Shown: positions 5,860 to 11,503 of the stretch, piece by piece
Layout: every line of letters starts with the position of its first letter
Numbering within the stretch: the first letter of the stretch is position 1
DNA from: a virus
Direction: 5' to 3' (one strand)
IMG/VR virus record: IMGVR_UViG_3300021963_000332
Location: 1-37,102 of that record
Length of the DNA: 37,102 nucleotides
The notes under the pieces: model-generated
What the model was told of the DNA's origin: nothing
What the model saw: only the letters and a program-made list of their open reading frames with translations
Database searches by the model: none
Position numbers and translations under genes: made by a program

Positions 5860-6053
5860 TTTGGAGCCTCCTCCATTTGTGTTACACCGCCAGTATGCCT
5901 AGTGCAAACTGGTCGGAATTCTAGTGGAATATGAACCTGAACCCAAGCAGAACACTTGGGACAAGTGAACCGTGTACCTGCAGTAAACAGTTTGCTCGGG
6001 GACTTACGCCCCCGAGCAGACCCTGCAACCTGATTATGAGATGTCGTCATCAT
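5856..6053 (-). CDS. Small zinc-ribbon-like protein
   Basis: This is a 65-residue basic protein with CPKC at 31-34 and VCTRH about 20 residues later, suggesting one zinc site. The start is one of two adjacent ATG codons (6053/6050) inside the end of the DUF3846 gene. No strong ribosome-binding site is seen, so expression probably depends on coupling. Function unknown. Confidence 0.65.
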   Translation of the reverse strand: MMTTSHNQVAGSARGRKSPSKLFTAGTRFTCPKCSAWVQVHIPLEFRPVCTRHTGGVTQMEEAPK

Positions 6054-6645
6054 CCGACAATCCCATTGAGTGCTTCAAGCAACGCTTGAGGATGTCACTC
6101 AACTCCTTGGGCATATCGCTCAGTGAACCGCCGATGGAACTCTCGGCTTCGTTCAGCATCCACTTGGATACACGCTCCAACTCGTCGGGGGTTACCACAC
6201 CAGCGGACAACGCCACCATTGAGGACTTCGCCAGAAGTTTCGTGAACATCACGGACTCCTGAACCTCCTCAAACATTGACTCCCTGAGATAATCGGCGAA
6301 CTGAACAGGGATGTCATAATCCTCCCCGTCATCCTCCTGAGTCTCAGGGTTCGTGGCATTGACAAGGACGCAGTCACCGAAAATGTGCTGGTCAAACAGC
6401 ATACTTGCCATTGGATTGATTGGCAGATTCAGTATCATCCCCTCATCGTGGACATAGCCAACGAGAGTGAATTTGTTTACCTTACCTGCAGTATCTGCAG
6501 CGACTCGGCGAACGGCATCAAAATTACCGCCCACCATTTTCTGGATTTCTGCCACCGTGTCAGTAGTGGTACCACCCAACAGAACCGTTGCAGGTTCCGT
6601 TGCCGTATCTGCTTTCAGCAGAACCGCACTTTTCATTCCAAACAT
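6034..6645 (-). CDS. DUF3846-type protein
   Basis: This is a 203-residue protein. The N-terminal part (about 18-100) has the DUF3846 pattern: IQKMVGGNFDAVR, then LVGYVHDEGMILNLPINPMAS and FGDCVLVNA. The family is common in phages and plasmids and has no settled function. The C-terminal half is acidic and helical. ATG 6645 is chosen because GGAGG lies six bases upstream in a hairpin loop. It is the first gene after hammerhead copy A and an extended -10 promoter. Confidence 0.8.
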   Translation of the reverse strand: MFGMKSAVLLKADTATEPATVLLGGTTTDTVAEIQKMVGGNFDAVRRVAADTAGKVNKFTLVGYVHDEGMILNLPINPMASMLFDQHIFGDCVLVNATNPETQEDDGEDYDIPVQFADYLRESMFEEVQESVMFTKLLAKSSMVALSAGVVTPDELERVSKWMLNEAESSIGGSLSDMPKELSDILKRCLKHSMGLSDDDDIS

Positions 6646-6646
6646 A

Positions 6647-6663
6647 AAACACCTCCAGTGTTT
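6647..6663 (-). promoter_or_regulatory. Shine-Dalgarno in palindromic hairpin (DUF3846 gene)
   Basis: The minus strand reads AAACAC-UGGAG-GUGUUU, six pairs with the loop holding GGAG. The UGGAG loop is shared with the starts at 7412 and 7691. Confidence 0.8.
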
Positions 6664-6675
6664 CATAGTCAAACT

Positions 6676-6742
6676 GGACTCATCAGCACCAGCATTTACT
6701 GGTGGACACCGCAGGGCAAGGAGTCCCCACGGTGTTTCGTCC
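6676..6742 (-). ncRNA. Hammerhead ribozyme, type II (copy A)
   Basis: Minus-strand order: GGAC (stem II 5'), GAAA, stem III CACCG/CGGUG with a further GGG/CCC inside, UC cleavage site, stem I CACCAG/CUGGUG (loop UAAAUG), CUGAUGA, GUCC (stem II 3'). All invariant core bases are present. Cleavage is predicted between 6705 and 6704. Stem II is the open stem, which makes it type II. The ribozyme starts about one base after the predicted transcription start and ends 30 bases before ATG 6645. Confidence 0.95.
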
Positions 6743-6749
6743 TAGGTAC

Positions 6750-6758
6750 ACTATAGCA
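6750..6758 (-). promoter_or_regulatory. Probable extended -10 promoter (TGCTATAGT)
   Basis: The minus strand reads TGCTATAGT just after the stop codon of 6761-7015. The expected start at about 6743 is directly next to the first base of hammerhead copy A, so a primary transcript would begin with the ribozyme. There is no clear -35 (ACTAAA at 17 bases). Confidence 0.6.
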
Positions 6759-6760
6759 GA

Positions 6761-7015
6761 CTAGTGTGACGCTTTAGTGTACCGCTTCGCCCTAGCCAAC
6801 CTCCGAGCCTGAATCCGTTTATAGGACGCAACCTCATCGGCAACCTGATTGATGCCAACCGCAAACGGTGCCCAAGCCAGCACAACCAACGCCAACCCAA
6901 GCATCGCCACGCCGTACGACAGGTCGTTGATGTTCGTGATGACAAGGATTGTCACCGCCAAACCGCAAAGCCCCGAAATTGTCGCCAAAGCGACACTCGT
7001 GATGATGTATTTCAT
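6761..7015 (-). CDS. Small two-helix membrane protein
   Basis: This is an 84-residue protein with a hydrophobic helix at about 4-26 and another at about 35-55 joined by NINDLSYG. The C-terminal tail is strongly basic (RIQARRLARAKRYTK) and probably cytoplasmic. Start ATG 7015 follows AGGAGG by ten bases. The first bases overlap the stop of the gene upstream. Function unknown; a holin role is possible on topology but its place in the early operon argues against it. Confidence 0.72.
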   Translation of the reverse strand: MKYIITSVALATISGLCGLAVTILVITNINDLSYGVAMLGLALVVLAWAPFAVGINQVADEVASYKRIQARRLARAKRYTKASH

Positions 7016-7017
7016 AA

Positions 7018-7272
7018 TTATTTCACCTCCTTCAACAATTCCCAAAAGTAATCCTGCAAACCCCAACGAATGTCGTCGTGAACCTGCTCCACCACATAGT
7101 CACGAGTTTCGTGAGTAGCAGCGTATGCGTTCCAAACTTCTCGGGGCACAAGCGGTACATCGCAACCGTTCTCGTCCACCAACTCAAAGTTTTCTGCATC
7201 CCACCACTCAATGATGATTTCATCATCGGGATTATAGTGCTTCAGTAACTCACGCACTTTGCTGACTTTCAT
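7018..7272 (-). CDS. Hypothetical small phage protein
   Basis: This is an 84-residue acidic protein. It opens KVSKVRELLKHYNPDDEIIIEWW, a pattern common in uncharacterised phage proteins. No catalytic motif is seen. GAGGAG precedes ATG 7272, which overlaps the preceding stop (TAATG). Confidence 0.75.
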   Translation of the reverse strand: MKVSKVRELLKHYNPDDEIIIEWWDAENFELVDENGCDVPLVPREVWNAYAATHETRDYVVEQVHDDIRWGLQDYFWELLKEVK

Positions 7273-7412
7273 TATTCCATCTCCTCATAGTTGTCGTCCT
7301 CAATTTCATTGAGGTTTGTGTAAATGATAACCTGCCCATCGTTGTCAGTATCCAACGAATAGTTGGGCAAAAGTTTTGCCAATTCTGTTCTCAACCAATA
7401 ACCGTTTATCAT
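7272..7412 (-). CDS. Tiny acidic protein (46 residues) behind hammerhead B
   Basis: This 46-codon ORF starts at ATG 7412, with GGAGG in a hairpin loop immediately upstream and hammerhead copy B 29 bases further up. It is acidic, with a C-terminal EIEDDNYEEME. Its stop overlaps the next ATG. The strong ribosome-binding site and matching leader design support it as a real gene. No family is recognised. Confidence 0.7.
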   Translation of the reverse strand: MINGYWLRTELAKLLPNYSLDTDNDGQVIIYTNLNEIEDDNYEEME

Positions 7413-7431
7413 AAACACCTCCAGTGTTTAT
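7411..7431 (-). promoter_or_regulatory. Shine-Dalgarno in palindromic hairpin (46-residue gene)
   Basis: The minus strand reads AUAAACAC-UGGAG-GUGUUUAU, eight pairs. The 3' arm runs into the start codon, so the folded form would hold both the ribosome-binding site and the first two bases of AUG. Confidence 0.8.
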
Positions 7432-7441
7432 AAGTCGGGCT

Positions 7442-7508
7442 GGACTCATCAGGTACCACACATATGGTACTACACGAAGCGCACACAACTACACTCCGTG
7501 TTTCGTCC
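7442..7508 (-). ncRNA. Hammerhead ribozyme, type II (copy B)
   Basis: Minus-strand order: GGAC, GAAA, stem III of nine pairs (7500-7492 with 7481-7473, two G-U), UA cleavage site, stem I GUACC/GGUAC with an eight-base loop, CUGAUGA, GUCC. The cleavage base is A rather than C, which hammerheads allow. Cleavage is predicted between 7471 and 7470. It lies between the 56-residue gene (stop 12 bases upstream) and the 46-residue gene. Confidence 0.94.
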
Positions 7509-7520
7509 TAAAACTGGGGA

Positions 7521-7691
7521 CTAAACAGTAGCCTCCACGAATTGTGGATGCTCAATCTTGTAAGCATCGCCACGCAGTGACTCCGCCAAAATGAGTTGCC
7601 CACTCCACGGCAAAATGCCGACCACGAAATAGCACTCACCCTCCAAGTGAAGCCCCTTGCGGTAACGCACCACATCACCAATCGCAAACAT
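7521..7691 (-). CDS. Small hypothetical protein (56 residues) between hammerheads B and C
   Basis: This 56-codon ORF starts at ATG 7691 behind a GGAGG hairpin and hammerhead copy C. The sequence (FAIGDVVRYRKGLHLEGECYF) looks like a small beta-barrel, possibly SH3- or KOW-like, but this is only an impression. It is flanked by self-cleaving elements on both sides, so after processing it would be a monocistronic message. A longer ORF to 8026 in the same frame would start inside the upstream gene and run through the ribozyme, and is rejected. Confidence 0.72.
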   Translation of the reverse strand: MFAIGDVVRYRKGLHLEGECYFVVGILPWSGQLILAESLRGDAYKIEHPQFVEATV

Positions 7692-7709
7692 AAACACCTC
7701 CAGTGTTTA
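7691..7709 (-). promoter_or_regulatory. Shine-Dalgarno in palindromic hairpin (56-residue gene)
   Basis: The minus strand reads UAAACAC-UGGAG-GUGUUUA, seven pairs, nearly the same as the element at 7411-7431. Together with the ribozyme it forms a duplicated leader cassette. Confidence 0.8.
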
Positions 7710-7720
7710 CAAGCCGTTCT

Positions 7721-7784
7721 GGACTCATCAGATACCGTAACACGGTATGACATCGGGAGCAACGACACTCCCGATGTTTCGTCC
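7721..7784 (-). ncRNA. Hammerhead ribozyme, type II (copy C)
   Basis: Minus-strand order: GGAC, GAAA, stem III CAUCGGGAG/CUCCCGAUG (nine pairs), UC cleavage site, stem I AUACCGU/ACGGUAU (seven pairs, loop GUU), CUGAUGA, GUCC. Every pair is Watson-Crick. Cleavage is predicted between 7749 and 7748. It begins ten bases after the stop of the CobT-like gene and ends 29 bases before ATG 7691. Confidence 0.97.
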
Positions 7785-7787
7785 TGA

Positions 7788-7806
7788 GGTGTTCTTACAG
7801 AACACC
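7788..7806 (-). other. Hairpin enclosing stop codon of CobT-like gene
   Basis: The minus strand reads GGUGUUCU-GUA-AGAACACC, an eight-bp hairpin with the UAA stop at its tip. It sits directly 5' of hammerhead C and has no U-tract, so it is not a standard terminator. Confidence 0.7.
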
Positions 7807-8658
7807 CAACCCTGACAGTGTGGACATCACATACTCCACTGGGTTCTTGATTATGTCGCCCTTGCCAGATTGCAACAGTTCGCACTGCACATCGGCACCG
7901 ACACGCTCCGCACACTCCAACGCCGAAGGATACCCATAGCCACCCTGAATCAGGCGCTTGGCAGGCTCCCACTCCGTCAATTCTAGGCAGGAAAACTGGA
8001 TGCGACGCAACATTGATGGGTGGCATAATGCGAACATCAGGTTATTGATGTCCAACATCTGTTGGGAGTCGTGCAATTTCACAAGTGAAGTGTGAACCTT
8101 GCCCCTGCGTTCGTTTACGCCAGTGTCGTTCGTCGGGAATTCGGCATAAACCTCAACACCCATCCCCAATTTGTGGACTGCATCCACCAAAGCACACACC
8201 GTGACACCACGACGAATTATGTCGTCGGGACGAACTGATGCCGATGCCGAACCGTTCACGATGATACGCACCACACGACCCATCCGCTCGGCGGGTTCGG
8301 GGACGAAGTCAATCATACACTCAGGCTCACCAGTGAGGAATTTGCCGATGTCTACGACACTGCCAGTGAAGTCGTAGCGAGTCTGAAACGCAGACTCAAT
8401 ACGGCTCGCCAATTGCGACTCCAATTCCGTGAACAATTTCTCCACTTGGGGACGAATCTCATCGTACCCTTGGTGCCCCAAAGACACTGCCTCACGAAGT
8501 GAATCAGTCTTGCCTGCCCAATCCTCGCCACGGAATTTGTCCGATGACTTGGGTGTTGGGTTGGCACCTGCATAATCCAAGCACTCCGCCAGTGAATCGT
8601 ATTCCTCCAGCCAAAGGCTGGTACCGCATAACGCCTTGAGTTTCTTACTGACTCGCAT
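7795..8658 (-). CDS. CobT-like/DUF7192-type partner of AAA+ ATPase
   Basis: This is a 287-residue protein. The segment VVRIIVNGSASASVRPDDI followed by GVTVCALVDAVHKLGMGVEVYAEF resembles a von Willebrand A-like core with the metal-site loop altered (S-A-S-A-S). Such proteins accompany MoxR/CobS-type AAA+ ATPases in bacteria (CobS-CobT) and in many phages. The gene directly follows the AAA+ gene, which supports a two-part chaperone or remodelling complex of unknown target. Start ATG 8658 has AGGAGG in a seven-bp hairpin. The family name is from pattern memory and needs a profile search. Confidence 0.65.
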   Translation of the reverse strand: MRVSKKLKALCGTSLWLEEYDSLAECLDYAGANPTPKSSDKFRGEDWAGKTDSLREAVSLGHQGYDEIRPQVEKLFTELESQLASRIESAFQTRYDFTGSVVDIGKFLTGEPECMIDFVPEPAERMGRVVRIIVNGSASASVRPDDIIRRGVTVCALVDAVHKLGMGVEVYAEFPTNDTGVNERRGKVHTSLVKLHDSQQMLDINNLMFALCHPSMLRRIQFSCLELTEWEPAKRLIQGGYGYPSALECAERVGADVQCELLQSGKGDIIKNPVEYVMSTLSGLGVL

Positions 8659-8661
8659 AAT

Positions 8662-8680
8662 CAAAACCTCCTAGGTTTTG
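8662..8680 (-). promoter_or_regulatory. Shine-Dalgarno in palindromic hairpin (CobT-like gene)
   Basis: The minus strand reads CAAAACC-UAGGA-GGUUUUG, seven pairs with the UAGGA loop. Confidence 0.8.
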
Positions 8681-8690
8681 GGTTGTGTGT

Positions 8691-8718
8691 CCCATCGGGG
8701 CAGAATTGCCCCGATGGG
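8691..8718 (-). promoter_or_regulatory. Strong leader hairpin upstream of CobT-like gene
   Basis: The minus strand reads CCCAUCGGGGC-(AAUUCU)-GCCCCGAUGGG, 11 perfect pairs. It takes the place a hammerhead occupies in the neighbouring leaders, but the CUGAUGA and GAAA core elements are absent. It is followed by an A/C-rich linker and the hairpin ribosome-binding site. Confidence 0.75.
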
Positions 8719-8735
8719 TATTACGGTATTCGGTG
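8717..8735. repeat. GGTATT repeat shared with leader at 3606
   Basis: The plus strand reads GGTATTACGGTATTCGGTG. It matches 3606-3624 at 17 of 19 positions. Both copies lie between a stable hairpin and other leader parts of minus-strand genes that lack a hammerhead. Confidence 0.7.
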
Positions 8736-8736
8736 A

Positions 8737-8750
8737 AACCCTAAAGGGTT
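8737..8750 (-). other. Hairpin enclosing stop codon of AAA+ ATPase gene
   Basis: The minus strand reads AACCC-UUUA-GGGUU, five pairs. The UAG stop spans the loop and the first base of the 3' arm. It has the same arrangement as 7788-7806, 10130-10143 and 35653-35675. Confidence 0.55.
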
Positions 8751-10033
8751 ACACCTTGGGCAATTTTCGCCACTTGGTCGGGCTTGGCACCCTTGGTGAC
8801 AGTAGCAGTGAACACCTCCTGCATACTGAACGCTCCACTCCGTAGGAGTTTCGCACCGTTCAGTGTAGCACGAGGTGACACAATCACCTTGAGTCCTGAC
8901 TCCGAGACATTCTGTCTCGCTTTACGGACAGCGGTGACCCACTTCGTGGCGATTATGGCATCCAAGCCAACCGATGCAAGCATTGCATCCTCCACCTTCT
9001 CATCAATTGGTACTTCCAATTGAGCGAAACGGTCAATCGTTGCACCGTCAATCGGGTTGCGTCCCACATACTCCATCGTGGCACCGCTACCGAAAGTGTT
9101 GCCAGTGGCGATACCGACGAAGTCGGGATGCTTCGGGACTCGTTTATCGGCAAATGCCATAAACCCATTGGCGAGGGCACTATTCAGTGCCCCAAGCACA
9201 TTGGGGTTGGCATTGTCAATTTCGTCAAAGACGAAAACACCGCCACCCTCAAAGATACGACGGAATTCCGTGGCAACATAGTTGCCATTCGCATCGTTGT
9301 AACCCTTCAGGGCAGTCTCCGTCATCGTTGAGGTGCAGTTTACTGCACTGAACGGCAACGACAAGGCTTCGGCGACTTGCTCCCCAATCGTGGACTTGCC
9401 AGTACCCGCTGGACCGACTAGCCACAAGTGGACACCTTGCGAGATAGCCCCAAGAACCTTGGGGAACACGAAGTGTTGGATGCCAGTCATCGGCTTGGCA
9501 GGCTTGTCTTTGACAACGATTGTGTTCACAATCGGCTTCACTGACTTCACCAATTCAGTCACTTCGTGACGGAATCCATCCATAATCGGATTGACGATTG
9601 TTCGGACTTCGTCCGAATTCACGCCACCCTCGTATCCATCCAGTGCAGTGTTCACGACATCGCTAGCGATGACACGAACCATCTCCTCAAGCCCCATAGG
9701 GCTTGCTGGCTTCGGTTTCGGTTGGGGCATTGGTGTCTCCTCCTTAGGAGTTGGTGTTGGCATCGGCGACGGAGTCGGCGACGGTGTTGGCTTCTCCACG
9801 AAGTGGACAACACGGATGTTATTCACGATGGCATCGTGAATCTGACCTAATGGCATAGCCATCGGGTTTTTTCCGACGAACCGAATACCAAGGTATTTGG
9901 CAACGGCAATCACTTCGGACTTCGGCAACGAACCCAACGCTAGTTGGGTCGTACCACCGTGGTAACCCTGCAAGGTTACCATTTGGGTACTCGGGTCGTA
10001 TCCTAAGATACGACGGGCTTTTACTGCTGGCAT
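8741..10033 (-). CDS. MoxR/CobS-like AAA+ ATPase
   Basis: The product is 430 residues. The ATPase module has Walker A GPAGTGKS (207-214), Walker B VFVFDEID (266-273), sensor 1 GIATGNT (about 308-314) and an arginine in IDRF (about 333-336), as in the AAA_5/MoxR group. The N-terminus (1-80) may be a substrate-binding unit. A Pro/Thr/Lys-rich linker (82-111) joins it to the core. Such ATPases act with VWA-like partners as metal chelatase subunits or protein remodellers, and the probable partner is encoded next door. Start ATG 10033 has AGGAGG in a hairpin. A longer in-frame start at 10099 would lie inside hammerhead D and is rejected. Confidence 0.88.
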   Translation of the reverse strand: MPAVKARRILGYDPSTQMVTLQGYHGGTTQLALGSLPKSEVIAVAKYLGIRFVGKNPMAMPLGQIHDAIVNNIRVVHFVEKPTPSPTPSPMPTPTPKEETPMPQPKPKPASPMGLEEMVRVIASDVVNTALDGYEGGVNSDEVRTIVNPIMDGFRHEVTELVKSVKPIVNTIVVKDKPAKPMTGIQHFVFPKVLGAISQGVHLWLVGPAGTGKSTIGEQVAEALSLPFSAVNCTSTMTETALKGYNDANGNYVATEFRRIFEGGGVFVFDEIDNANPNVLGALNSALANGFMAFADKRVPKHPDFVGIATGNTFGSGATMEYVGRNPIDGATIDRFAQLEVPIDEKVEDAMLASVGLDAIIATKWVTAVRKARQNVSESGLKVIVSPRATLNGAKLLRSGAFSMQEVFTATVTKGAKPDQVAKIAQGVTL

Positions 10034-10036
10034 AAT

Positions 10037-10052
10037 CAACCTCCTGAGGTTG
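10037..10052 (-). promoter_or_regulatory. Shine-Dalgarno in palindromic hairpin (AAA+ gene)
   Basis: The minus strand reads CAACCU-CAGG-AGGUUG, six pairs. It differs from the others in its loop but keeps the self-complementary ribosome-binding site. Confidence 0.75.
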
Positions 10053-10066
10053 TGTGTAGTCGGACT

Positions 10067-10126
10067 GGACTCATCAGACACCGTGAAACGGTGTGACATT
10101 GGGGCAATAGCCCCAATGTTTCGTCC
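10067..10126 (-). ncRNA. Hammerhead ribozyme, type II (copy D)
   Basis: Minus-strand order: GGAC, GAAA, stem III CAUUGGGGC/GCCCCAAUG (nine pairs, loop UAUU), UC cleavage site, stem I ACACCGU/ACGGUGU (seven pairs, loop UUC), CUGAUGA, GUCC. All pairs are Watson-Crick and the core is complete. Cleavage is predicted between 10095 and 10094. It ends 33 bases before the AAA+ ATPase start and begins nine bases after the stop of 10136-10480. Confidence 0.97.
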
Positions 10127-10129
10127 TAA

Positions 10130-10143
10130 ACCGCTTTAGCGGT
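10130..10143 (-). other. Hairpin enclosing stop codon of gene 10136-10480
   Basis: The minus strand reads ACCGC-UAAA-GCGGU with the UAA stop in the loop. Hammerhead D begins four bases downstream. Confidence 0.6.
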
Positions 10144-10480
10144 CAAAGCGACTATCAACATCGCTAAAGCGAAGTGTAACCTTGTCGCCGATTACTTCGT
10201 ATCGGGCATCGCCATTATTCCGACGATACCGCCAACCATAGTTGGCGAGAATCTTGTTCATCCCCTGCTGGTCGGATGCGCTACCCCAACCCACTGAGAT
10301 TGGTGTGAATTCCCAAGTCTGCAAGTCATTCTCATTGAGAATGAAAGCACCCATCAAGGTACCGTAATGGTACACCGTACGGCAATCTGTGGAATCCACA
10401 AACGACCAATTCCCGACATTCCTACGCTTACCTGACTTGTGTGGTGCGGCGACAAAGTCGCCAATAAGTGCCAATCGCAT
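10136..10480 (-). CDS. Conserved hypothetical phage protein
   Basis: This is a 114-residue protein. Recognisable stretches are RLALIGDF at the start, VGNWSFVDS, TVYHYGTLMGAF, TPISVGWGSASDQQGMNKIL and NYGWRYRR. This is a compact beta-rich pattern I associate with uncharacterised phage proteins. No active site is evident. It has AGGAGG in a hairpin before ATG 10480 and is the first gene after the 1-kb structured non-coding region. Confidence 0.8.
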   Translation of the reverse strand: MRLALIGDFVAAPHKSGKRRNVGNWSFVDSTDCRTVYHYGTLMGAFILNENDLQTWEFTPISVGWGSASDQQGMNKILANYGWRYRRNNGDARYEVIGDKVTLRFSDVDSRFDR

Positions 10481-10485
10481 AATCC

Positions 10486-10500
10486 CAACCTCCTAGGTTG
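10486..10500 (-). promoter_or_regulatory. Shine-Dalgarno in palindromic hairpin (gene at 10480)
   Basis: The minus strand reads CAACC-UAGGA-GGUUG, five pairs, preceded by an A/C-rich linker (ACAACACAACA). Confidence 0.78.
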
Positions 10501-10512
10501 TGTTGTGTTGTC

Positions 10513-10535
10513 TCCGCCACCAAATTGGTGACGAA
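10513..10535 (-). promoter_or_regulatory. Leader hairpin before gene 10480
   Basis: The minus strand reads UUCGUCACC-(AAUUU)-GGUGGCGGA, nine pairs with two G-U. An A/C-rich linker and the hairpin ribosome-binding site follow, the same layout as at 3634 and 8691. Confidence 0.65.
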
Positions 10536-10760
10536 GTCTGCTACGATAGTAGCATAGTGGATGGCAACGGAATTGCACCGTCAAACCGCAACGACCAAGG
10601 TCGTGTAGGAGCATACCTACCCTCAGCGGTTCACGCACTGCCCATCGTAATTACGATGGGACGCATACCAACCCTGCACCTAGGCTATGACACCTAGGAC
10701 GCTCGGACTCACCGATACCGCAAGTATCGGGGAGATTCCACGACACAACCTATCAGGTTG

Positions 10761-10824
10761 TGCATAATCGTTGTCACACTCAGACCGCCCCGAAGGGCTA
10801 GTAGACCATACTCCCGATTATGCA
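10761..10824 (-). other. Inverted repeat with UUCG inner hairpin
   Basis: TGCATAATCG (10761-10770) is the exact reverse complement of 10815-10824. Between the arms the minus strand has GCCC-UUCG-GGGC (10787-10798), a classic stable tetraloop. The whole is a long branched stem-loop in RNA, or a cruciform-type site in DNA. Confidence 0.7.
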
Positions 10825-11343
10825 GAATTCTGACAGAATTCGTGCCGTAATCCTATGTACGAGGTGCGTTTCCGAGACGCTACGACTCGCTCGGTACCAC
10901 GGAATGTCCGTATCGTGACCTAAGCCACTTGGTACCGCTAGCACTTCACAGGGCATCGTGTCCCCTGATTGCTTCGTGCCACCGACGAATCGGAGCGTAG
11001 TCGCTACCGTTCGTTCGGCACCACCGCTATTTGGGTGATTTGTCTGGTCAGGGTGTCAGTGACTCCCCGACGAGGTTGCCAAACACTGTATACCGATGCC
11101 GAAACAAATTGCAAATCCAAAATCACGCAGGACTTTTCCTGCGCATAATGCACAAGAAAGCAGTTCTGCATACGAGAAACCACACACGCATAATGCGCCC
11201 ACAGTTTCGCACACGCCCACATTTTGCAAAATCCACTTTCACAAGCACACAAGGGGATTGGTTTCGGAGTCCTCGCCTCGCACGGTGCGCCGTCCGCACA
11301 CGGGATACAGCATCTGTCAAGCGAACAAGTGTTTGGGGGACGG

Positions 11344-11352
11344 ATTATAACA
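11344..11352 (-). promoter_or_regulatory. Probable extended -10 promoter (TGTTATAAT)
   Basis: The minus strand reads TGTTATAAT, a perfect extended -10. The hexamer 17 bases upstream is GCCAAT, not a good -35, like the other minus-strand candidates here. It would drive the structured region and the genes from 10480 leftward. Confidence 0.6.
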
Positions 11353-11403
11353 GTTTTATAGGCATAATTGGCACCATAATCAGCCACCTGCCACCTGACA
11401 CGA

Positions 11404-11426
11404 GGGGGGGCATAGGGGGGCACGGG
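11404..11426 (+). other. G-tract cluster
   Basis: The plus strand has runs of seven, six and three G (11404-11410, 11415-11420, 11424-11426). It is preceded by a CCACCTG direct repeat (11384-11397). The long runs could form a two- or four-strand G-structure. Confidence 0.5.
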
Positions 11427-11483
11427 CGTGCGTGTATATTTCTATATGAGGCTCCATAGCCAGATTGTGAAATTTATAAAGTC

Positions 11484-11503
11484 AATGTGACCGCAGTCAC
11501 ATT
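11484..11503. terminator. Hairpin 3' of gene 11506-11814
   Basis: AATGTGAC-(CGCA)-GTCACATT, eight pairs, begins two bases after the stop of 11506-11814. On the plus strand four T follow the arm; on the minus strand there is no clean U-run. It may end the minus transcript or shield its 3' end. Assigned on position and symmetry only. Confidence 0.5.

Follow-up and report, generated by a model that had tools for sequence, protein, structure and literature searches.

A serial array of type II hammerheads between early genes of an uncultured tailed phage, and its probable role in messenger RNA processing

The window considered here is the whole 37,102-nucleotide (nt) stretch of viral DNA in IMG/VR record IMGVR_UViG_3300021963_000332, positions 1 to 37,102. 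It comes from an uncultured tailed phage whose structural genes (terminase, portal, adaptor) lie on the plus strand and whose early and replication genes (AEP primase, DnaB-like helicase, PD-(D/E)XK nuclease, AAA_5 ATPase, DUF7192, DUF3846) lie on the minus strand. Between these early genes, and likewise on the minus strand, stand four complete type II hammerheads, HHR1 to HHR4. They divide part of the block into a 114-amino-acid (aa) gene, the ATPase gene with the DUF7192 gene, a 56-aa gene, three small genes, and the stretch from the DUF3846 gene onward (Table 1).

All four sites share one order of elements: GGAC, GAA, stem III from A15.1 to U16.1, the cleavage-site nucleotide H17, stem I, CUGAUGA and GUCC. 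Each has the core that defines the class (CUGANGA and GAA, the A15.1-U16.1 pair, an H17 other than G), and stems I and III are closed while stem II is open, the type II arrangement. By core, stems and covariation the elements are hammerheads, for which self-cleavage is predicted. The sequence CTGATGA occurs on the minus strand of the 37 kilobases (kb) nowhere other than in these four, and a relaxed scan of both strands for hammerheads of types I, II and III returns the same four and nothing more, with none in 20 shuffled windows, so that the original prediction of four hammerheads in one operon is borne out. A match to an Rfam family was considered as proof of identity and set aside. At E ≤ 5 no hammerhead entry matches the window. 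With one site scanned alone the sole hammerhead entry returned is RF00008 (type III), below threshold at 12.9 bits against 48.5, and the gathering threshold of RF02276 (Hammerhead_II) is not reached by the window sites. A structural descriptor, shuffled controls and a survey of related elements were used instead.

For the survey, IMG/VR was scanned for GGACGAAAC-N30..60-CTGATGAGTCC (at least 119 stretches) and for the GGC/GCC variant (at least 120 stretches), with relatives, a tail-specific scan and 17 stretches of prokaryote genomes as further sources; among the last, Streptomyces iakyrus and Phycicoccus jejuensis carry three hammerheads each. The comparison set consists of 348 distinct hammerheads among the matches listed. 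The scans impose the core sequences, dereplication and the calls of open reading frames (ORFs) are approximate, and the phages share ancestry; ORFs were taken from a same-strand caller and, for Streptomyces phages, from the annotated genes. Read backwards, the pattern occurs in none of 50 and none of 30 whole records, in which true matches number 1–10 per record and all lie on a single strand within any one record. Arrays reach 9 and 10 hammerheads in single records and, counting variants at core position N7, 11 in one stretch.

The stems of these elements vary in sequence while pairing is kept. In a first set of 133 distinct hammerheads, again among the matches listed, both stems can be parsed in 129 as against 7 of 133 shuffled counterparts, every variable stem position is occupied by several types of pair, stem I is 7 base pairs (bp) long in 104 of the 129, and in 130 of the 133 the base just before GGAC is A. 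Together with the fixed length of stem-loop I (17–18 nt), this A suggests, as far as sequence can, the classical contact between loop I and stem II. Covariation maintains all three paired stems, both in relatives and at orthologous sites where stems have been replaced. The core behaves otherwise. Exact core patterns served to retrieve the primary sites, and the N7 variants are secondary sites of the same contigs; of 73 single-mismatch look-alikes in the same DNA, 70 are changed at N7, the sole free position of the core. The identity of H17, which the scan did not impose, is C, A or U but never G among 289 intact cores. Core variation almost confined to N7, and an H17 that is never G, therefore argue that cleavage is under selection. 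As plain hairpins would not show this pattern, the selection evident in the sequences appears to act on catalysis itself.

Placement is equally constrained. In the window, stop codons end 9–18 nt before, and AUG codons follow 29–33 nt after, each hammerhead, and GUCCAG is present after all four, as the original prediction had described. It had also proposed that random positions in related genomes would speak against a processing role. In related and unrelated phages alike, placement proves strongly non-random, at gene junctions. The stop codon of an ORF 80 or more codons long ends within −2 to +4 nt of stem II in 151 of 322 hammerheads with enough upstream DNA, among the matches listed, compared with about 6 expected from random positions on the same strand. 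Stops of long ORFs almost never fall inside the ribozyme, and the next start lies a median of 26 nt downstream (interquartile range 21–31). The proteins encoded downstream fall into 258 clusters among 342, and it is therefore the position that is kept rather than any particular gene. Five cultured Streptomyces phages, Diane, Daudau, Caelum, Hank144 and Paolo (L315–L319), carry 7–10 type II hammerheads each in their right arms. Of these, 37 of 42 lie between annotated genes, and a hammerhead is present in 27 of 32 gaps of 75–160 nt but only 1 of 74 gaps under 60 nt; in the stretches shown, no hammerhead carries an RNA annotation. The annotated starts of a few genes in these phages run into a ribozyme, the start probably having been set too far upstream.

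Some of the window's junctions can be followed into diverged phages. A counterpart of HHR4 is kept before the ATPase gene in L108, L124 and L128 (about 87–92% protein identity), L125 (78%), L050 (44%), L283 (41%) and L026 (34%); in L125 its stem II is altered on both sides of the helix, to AGAC/GUCU. HHR1 is kept before the DUF3846 gene in L127, L008, L020 and L283 (34–50% protein identity), with different stems, and HHR3 is kept in L124 with its stems replaced. At such orthologous sites stem III and parts of stem I have been swapped for other paired sequences. HHR2 has no counterpart ahead of the same gene in the set retrieved; the gene downstream of it is without a relative among the other ribozyme-linked genes of that set. 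Recurrence of hammerheads before AAA_5 ATPase and DUF3846 genes is seen across the window (6034-10136) and the diverged phages L026, L050 and L283. A 12-member protein cluster (L279, L197, L280 and others), which we take to resemble DUF932, is also preceded by hammerheads.

Two structural classes can be distinguished among these elements. In hammerheads with a GCC stem II, loop I pairs with the 3′ tail beyond what permuted tails allow (4.38, where permutations reach at most 3.86). The window elements fall in the GUC class, in which such pairing is no better than with permuted tails (3.22 vs. 3.19); on this negative permutation test a loop I–tail pseudoknot was rejected for the window class. 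RF02276 detects the GCC class and misses nearly all of the GUC class. Although type II hammerheads, the window elements depart from the type II family as described in two respects, the RF02276 threshold and the pseudoknot, and arrays of their subclass are under-annotated because Rfam misses them.

A further feature, found in relatives, concerns the 3′ tail that follows the core. AUCAG stands directly after GUCC at the start of 25 of 133 tails (first set, matches listed), and 38 tails are complementary to the CUGAUGAGUC strand over at least 5 pairs, compared with 4.9 when tails are shuffled. Cores with U7 are followed by AUCAG in 42 cases and by GUCAG in 7, and those with C7 by GUCAG in 8 and AUCAG in 1 (Fisher p 2.6e-5); as the Fisher test counts sequences rather than independent events, cases within single genomes are the stronger evidence. 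Such joint switches of N7 and tail occur inside L118 (four U7/AUCAG and three C7/GUCAG), L106, L068, L269 and L309. The covariation therefore indicates that the six-pair CUGAYG/CRUCAG hairpins are under selection. This hairpin excludes the active fold and, by nearest-neighbor energies, exceeds the active secondary fold in stability by a median of 2.4 kcal/mol. It may be confined to cleaved RNA, as a product lock or second 5′ hairpin, or it may hold uncut RNA. The window tails, CAGNNNGACU, could pair with AGUC. The AGUC...GACU tail class to which they belong was considered as an alternative hairpin and is enriched (20 of 127 vs. about 4), but it does not covary with changes of stem II to GCC and is not claimed here.

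How these features might serve the phage can be proposed with some assurance. The four sites are probably active-type type II hammerheads that process the early minus-strand polycistronic RNA as it is transcribed, acting in processing and insulation. Each ribozyme would be complete once its GUCC had been transcribed and, if folded, would cut at H17, each cut falling after a gene's stop codon and ahead of the following gene's ribosome-binding site. The resulting units would hold one to three genes: the AAA ATPase gene with the DUF7192 gene, the 56-aa gene, the three small genes, and the DUF3846 gene onward. An upstream unit would retain its stop codon and close with the stem III hairpin, a 2′,3′-cyclic phosphate at its terminus; a downstream unit would begin with a blunt stem I hairpin bearing a 5′-OH, followed by its own ribosome-binding site. 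These ends, predicted from the structure, are as originally described. A 5′-OH and a base-paired 5′ end hinder decay that depends on the 5′ end, and a 3′ hairpin hinders 3′ exonucleases. The likely benefit would be insulation, with defined, hairpin-capped ends giving each unit its own stability and translation, as with the synthetic insulator RiboJ. RiboJ raises transcript about 2-fold and protein 2–10-fold (PMC6206723), RiboJ-type ribozymes in Escherichia coli cleave with an efficiency of 0.84–0.94, with one exception (PMC7536230), and cleavage of tandem hammerhead arrays has been shown both in vitro and in E. coli (PMC3088659). By analogy, the window ribozymes may raise the stability or expression of what lies downstream. 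It is from sequence, structure, covariation, conserved placement and the selection on catalytic positions that we infer cleavage in infected cells, stabilization and benefit.

Several observations weigh against this proposal. The junction between the ATPase and DUF7192 genes, like other junctions of the same operon, lacks a ribozyme, so that processing is not universal. The free minimum-energy fold lies 1.0–2.7 kcal/mol below the hammerhead-constrained fold at the four sites, tertiary contacts not being counted. ORF calls are crude outside the annotated phages, and a selfish ribozyme that is tolerated would likewise persist in the gaps between genes. On another view the ribozymes are selfish or neutral hitch-hikers, spreading or arising often and persisting only in gaps because cleavage within genes does harm. 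Gaps would be the only tolerated place, the downstream genes share no common function, and some elements of the same array are alike (e.g., in G001 and G041). This view nevertheless seems quite unlikely: cores stay intact while stems are replaced, the large gaps of the compact Streptomyces phages mostly hold hammerheads, junctions are kept at 34–50% protein identity, and no mobile element, integrase or repeat unit is seen around the window's four copies. A reading of the sites as stem-loops without ribozyme activity (attenuators, terminators or RNase III sites) is scarcely credible. Strong stem III and stem I hairpins do stand at the junctions, but stem III is not followed by a U-tract, none of the four sites is among the terminator-like matches, and plain hairpins leave the invariant single-stranded core, the H17 rule and the fixed 17–18-nt stem-loop I unexplained.

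The alternatives that accept cleavage differ in what would govern it or follow from it. A translation-gated switch, in place of a constitutive cutter, would have the terminating ribosome keep stem II open and, in many phages, the CUGAYG/CRUCAG tail sequester the catalytic strand, the RNA being cut or spared according to translation or timing. Among the matches listed, roughly half of the hammerheads have their stop directly against stem II, the tail covaries with N7 repeatedly inside single genomes, and the alternative hairpin is the more stable by the margin given above. It is equally possible, however, that the tail hairpin arises in cleaved RNA alone, to lock the product or cap its 5′ end; the four window sites have no RUCAG tail, and their weaker GACU tail class, though enriched, shows no covariation. 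Toeprints place the leading edge of a terminating ribosome about 9–10 nt past the stop. With stops 9–18 nt away, a ribosome at the upstream stop would barely reach stem II or would miss it, contrary to the suggestion in the original prediction that it would cover the first strand; the idea fits roughly half of the hammerheads elsewhere, those with the stop abutting stem II. Gating is accordingly an unlikely, if serious, contender overall; at the four window sites it is possible but borderline. It is very improbable that the cut ends are rejoined to give circular or spliced RNAs, in the manner of retrozymes and viroid-like agents. Tandem hammerheads do flank short segments, and 2′,3′-cyclic phosphate and 5′-OH ends suit the ligase RtcB, but RtcB is found in none of 25 records, made up of the window and 24 phages that bear arrays or are related, and the RNA_ligase family in only 2, the segments hold ordinary genes with their own ribosome-binding sites, and Perreault et al. 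found no spliced or circular products (PMC3088659). A retrozyme or circular RNA element was set aside on the same grounds, the missing RtcB and the ordinary genes between sites. The two RNA ligase genes lie in L320 (MW202803.1; 20387-21487), which by its terminase is the closest named relative to the window phage, and in the array phage G001 (103086-103577); in the other 23 records, the window included, none was found.

Table 1. Hammerheads, genes and Shine-Dalgarno (SD) hairpins of the minus-strand early block. Cut positions are predicted and are read down the minus strand; distances to stop and AUG are measured from stem II.
Feature	Coordinates	Strand	Remarks
114-aa gene, no family, upstream of HHR4	10136..10480	minus	stop ends 9 nt before stem II
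HHR4, type II hammerhead	10126-10067	minus	cut between 10095 and 10094; H17 = C; stems II/III/I 4/10/7 bp; upstream of AAA ATPase gene; stop 9 nt, AUG 33 nt
SD in hairpin CAACCTCAGGAGGTTG, before ATPase start	10037..10052	minus	
AAA_5 (MoxR/CbbQ-like) ATPase gene, first after HHR4	8741..10033	minus	PF07728, 2.6e-18; phrog_249
DUF7192 gene	7795..8658	minus	stop ends 10 nt before HHR3
HHR3, type II hammerhead	7784-7721	minus	cut between 7749 and 7748; H17 = C; stems II/III/I 4/12/7 bp; stop 10 nt, AUG 29 nt
SD in hairpin AAACACTGGAGGTGTTT, after HHR3	7692..7708	minus	
56-aa gene, alone between HHR3 and HHR2	7521..7691	minus	conserved in L124
HHR2, type II hammerhead	7508-7442	minus	cut between 7471 and 7470; H17 = A; stems II/III/I 4/12/7 bp; stop 12 nt, AUG 29 nt
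SD in hairpin AAACACTGGAGGTGTTT, after HHR2	7413..7429	minus	
46-aa ORF, first after HHR2	7272..7412	minus	
84-aa gene	7018..7272	minus	start overlaps preceding stop (TAATG)
Second 84-aa gene	6761..7015	minus	stop ends 18 nt before HHR1
HHR1, type II hammerhead	6742-6676	minus	cut between 6705 and 6704; H17 = C; stems II/III/I 4/11/7 bp; stop 18 nt, AUG 30 nt
SD in hairpin AAACACTGGAGGTGTTT, after HHR1	6647..6663	minus	
DUF3846 gene, first after HHR1	6034..6645	minus	PF12957

Other features of the locus bear less directly on the ribozymes. The hairpin ribosome-binding site that the original prediction assigned to the array is real at the four sites, but its genome-wide occurrence in the window phage shows that it does not belong to a ribozyme cassette. 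SD-bearing hairpins also precede the ribozyme-free genes at 10480, 8658, 4564, 3573 and 20257. At many window genes, including that at 10033 and the other hammerhead-linked starts, a short hairpin (e.g., CAACCTAGGAGGTTG) carries the SD sequence in its loop, independently of the ribozymes. Pairing of GUCCAG with the SD sequence CUGGAGG was considered as a switch of ribosome binding and dropped, SD accessibility being nearly equal in the cleaved product and the hammerhead-folded precursor (0.38 vs. 0.40; 0.61–0.64 vs. 0.61–0.64). Just upstream of the ribozyme-bearing block lies about 1 kb without clear genes (10490-11500), with inverted repeats at 10486-10515/10731-10760 and 10758-10770/10815-10827; this stretch is possibly an early promoter, leader or origin. 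No close DNA relatives of the window region were found among named phages, and the nearest named terminase, that of MW202803.1, is 48% identical.

The role of bacterial and phage hammerheads has been an open question since 2011, and the placement rule, the variation confined to N7 and the 7–10-member arrays of cultured phages, which grow on laboratory strains of Streptomyces, now make it testable by simple experiment. If the processing model holds, RNA catalysis, rather than extra promoters or host nucleases, would set the dosage of neighboring early genes, and these phages would offer insulator parts of natural origin. Should the covarying tail hairpin gate cleavage, it would represent an RNA switch of a new type. 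Apparently new are the order of stop, ribozyme and ribosome-binding site, arrays of up to 11, the subclass without a pseudoknot and, in relatives, the 3′ tail covarying with N7. For the stop-abutting rule and the covarying tail no earlier report was found in the open-access literature, subscription papers lying outside the search, and their novelty is provisional.

Serial processing by hammerheads is itself not new. Perreault et al. (2011) described type II hammerheads clustered around phage genes, proposed the processing hypothesis, and showed that three arrays cleave in vitro, as does the Agrobacterium array inside E. coli (PMC3088659); the original prediction was therefore wrong to state that no such case had been described. 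Their prophage clusters (Clostridium scindens, Azorhizobium, the Agrobacterium ardA triple) resemble the window in that several hammerheads flank single phage genes or short blocks, and the window, with several on one strand flanking phage genes, belongs with such clustered phage hammerheads. For those clusters cleavage was shown and processing into operon- or gene-length mRNAs proposed; the window array differs in its single architecture, type II without the loop I–tail pseudoknot, and no quantitative rule for placement relative to stop and ribosome-binding site was found in that paper (PMC3088659). The HHphage element of haloviruses HF1 and HF2, a hammerhead variant 13 nt upstream of a phage gene start for which a transcript 5′ end was mapped no more than 3 nt from the predicted cut (PMC3088659), is unlike the window in being a single element with a variant core in an archaeal virus.

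Rfam's RF02276 has the type II element order and catalytic core in common with the window elements, but finds the GCC/GGC pseudoknotted class in Streptomyces phages and not the window's four. The Streptomyces phage arrays are, like the window's, serial type II hammerheads in the gaps between small genes, set between a stop and a ribosome-binding site. They differ in their GCC/GGC stem II, their loop I–tail pseudoknot and their number, 7–10 in the right arm, and no resemblance to the window region could be found at the DNA level. A parallel of another kind is offered by RiboJ and other synthetic insulators, engineered from the satellite RNA of a plant virus and placed after promoters rather than between genes. 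As in the window, a hammerhead is followed by a hairpin and a ribosome-binding site, an arrangement that in the self-cleaving synthetic parts gives a defined 5′ end and raised expression (PMC6206723, PMC7536230).

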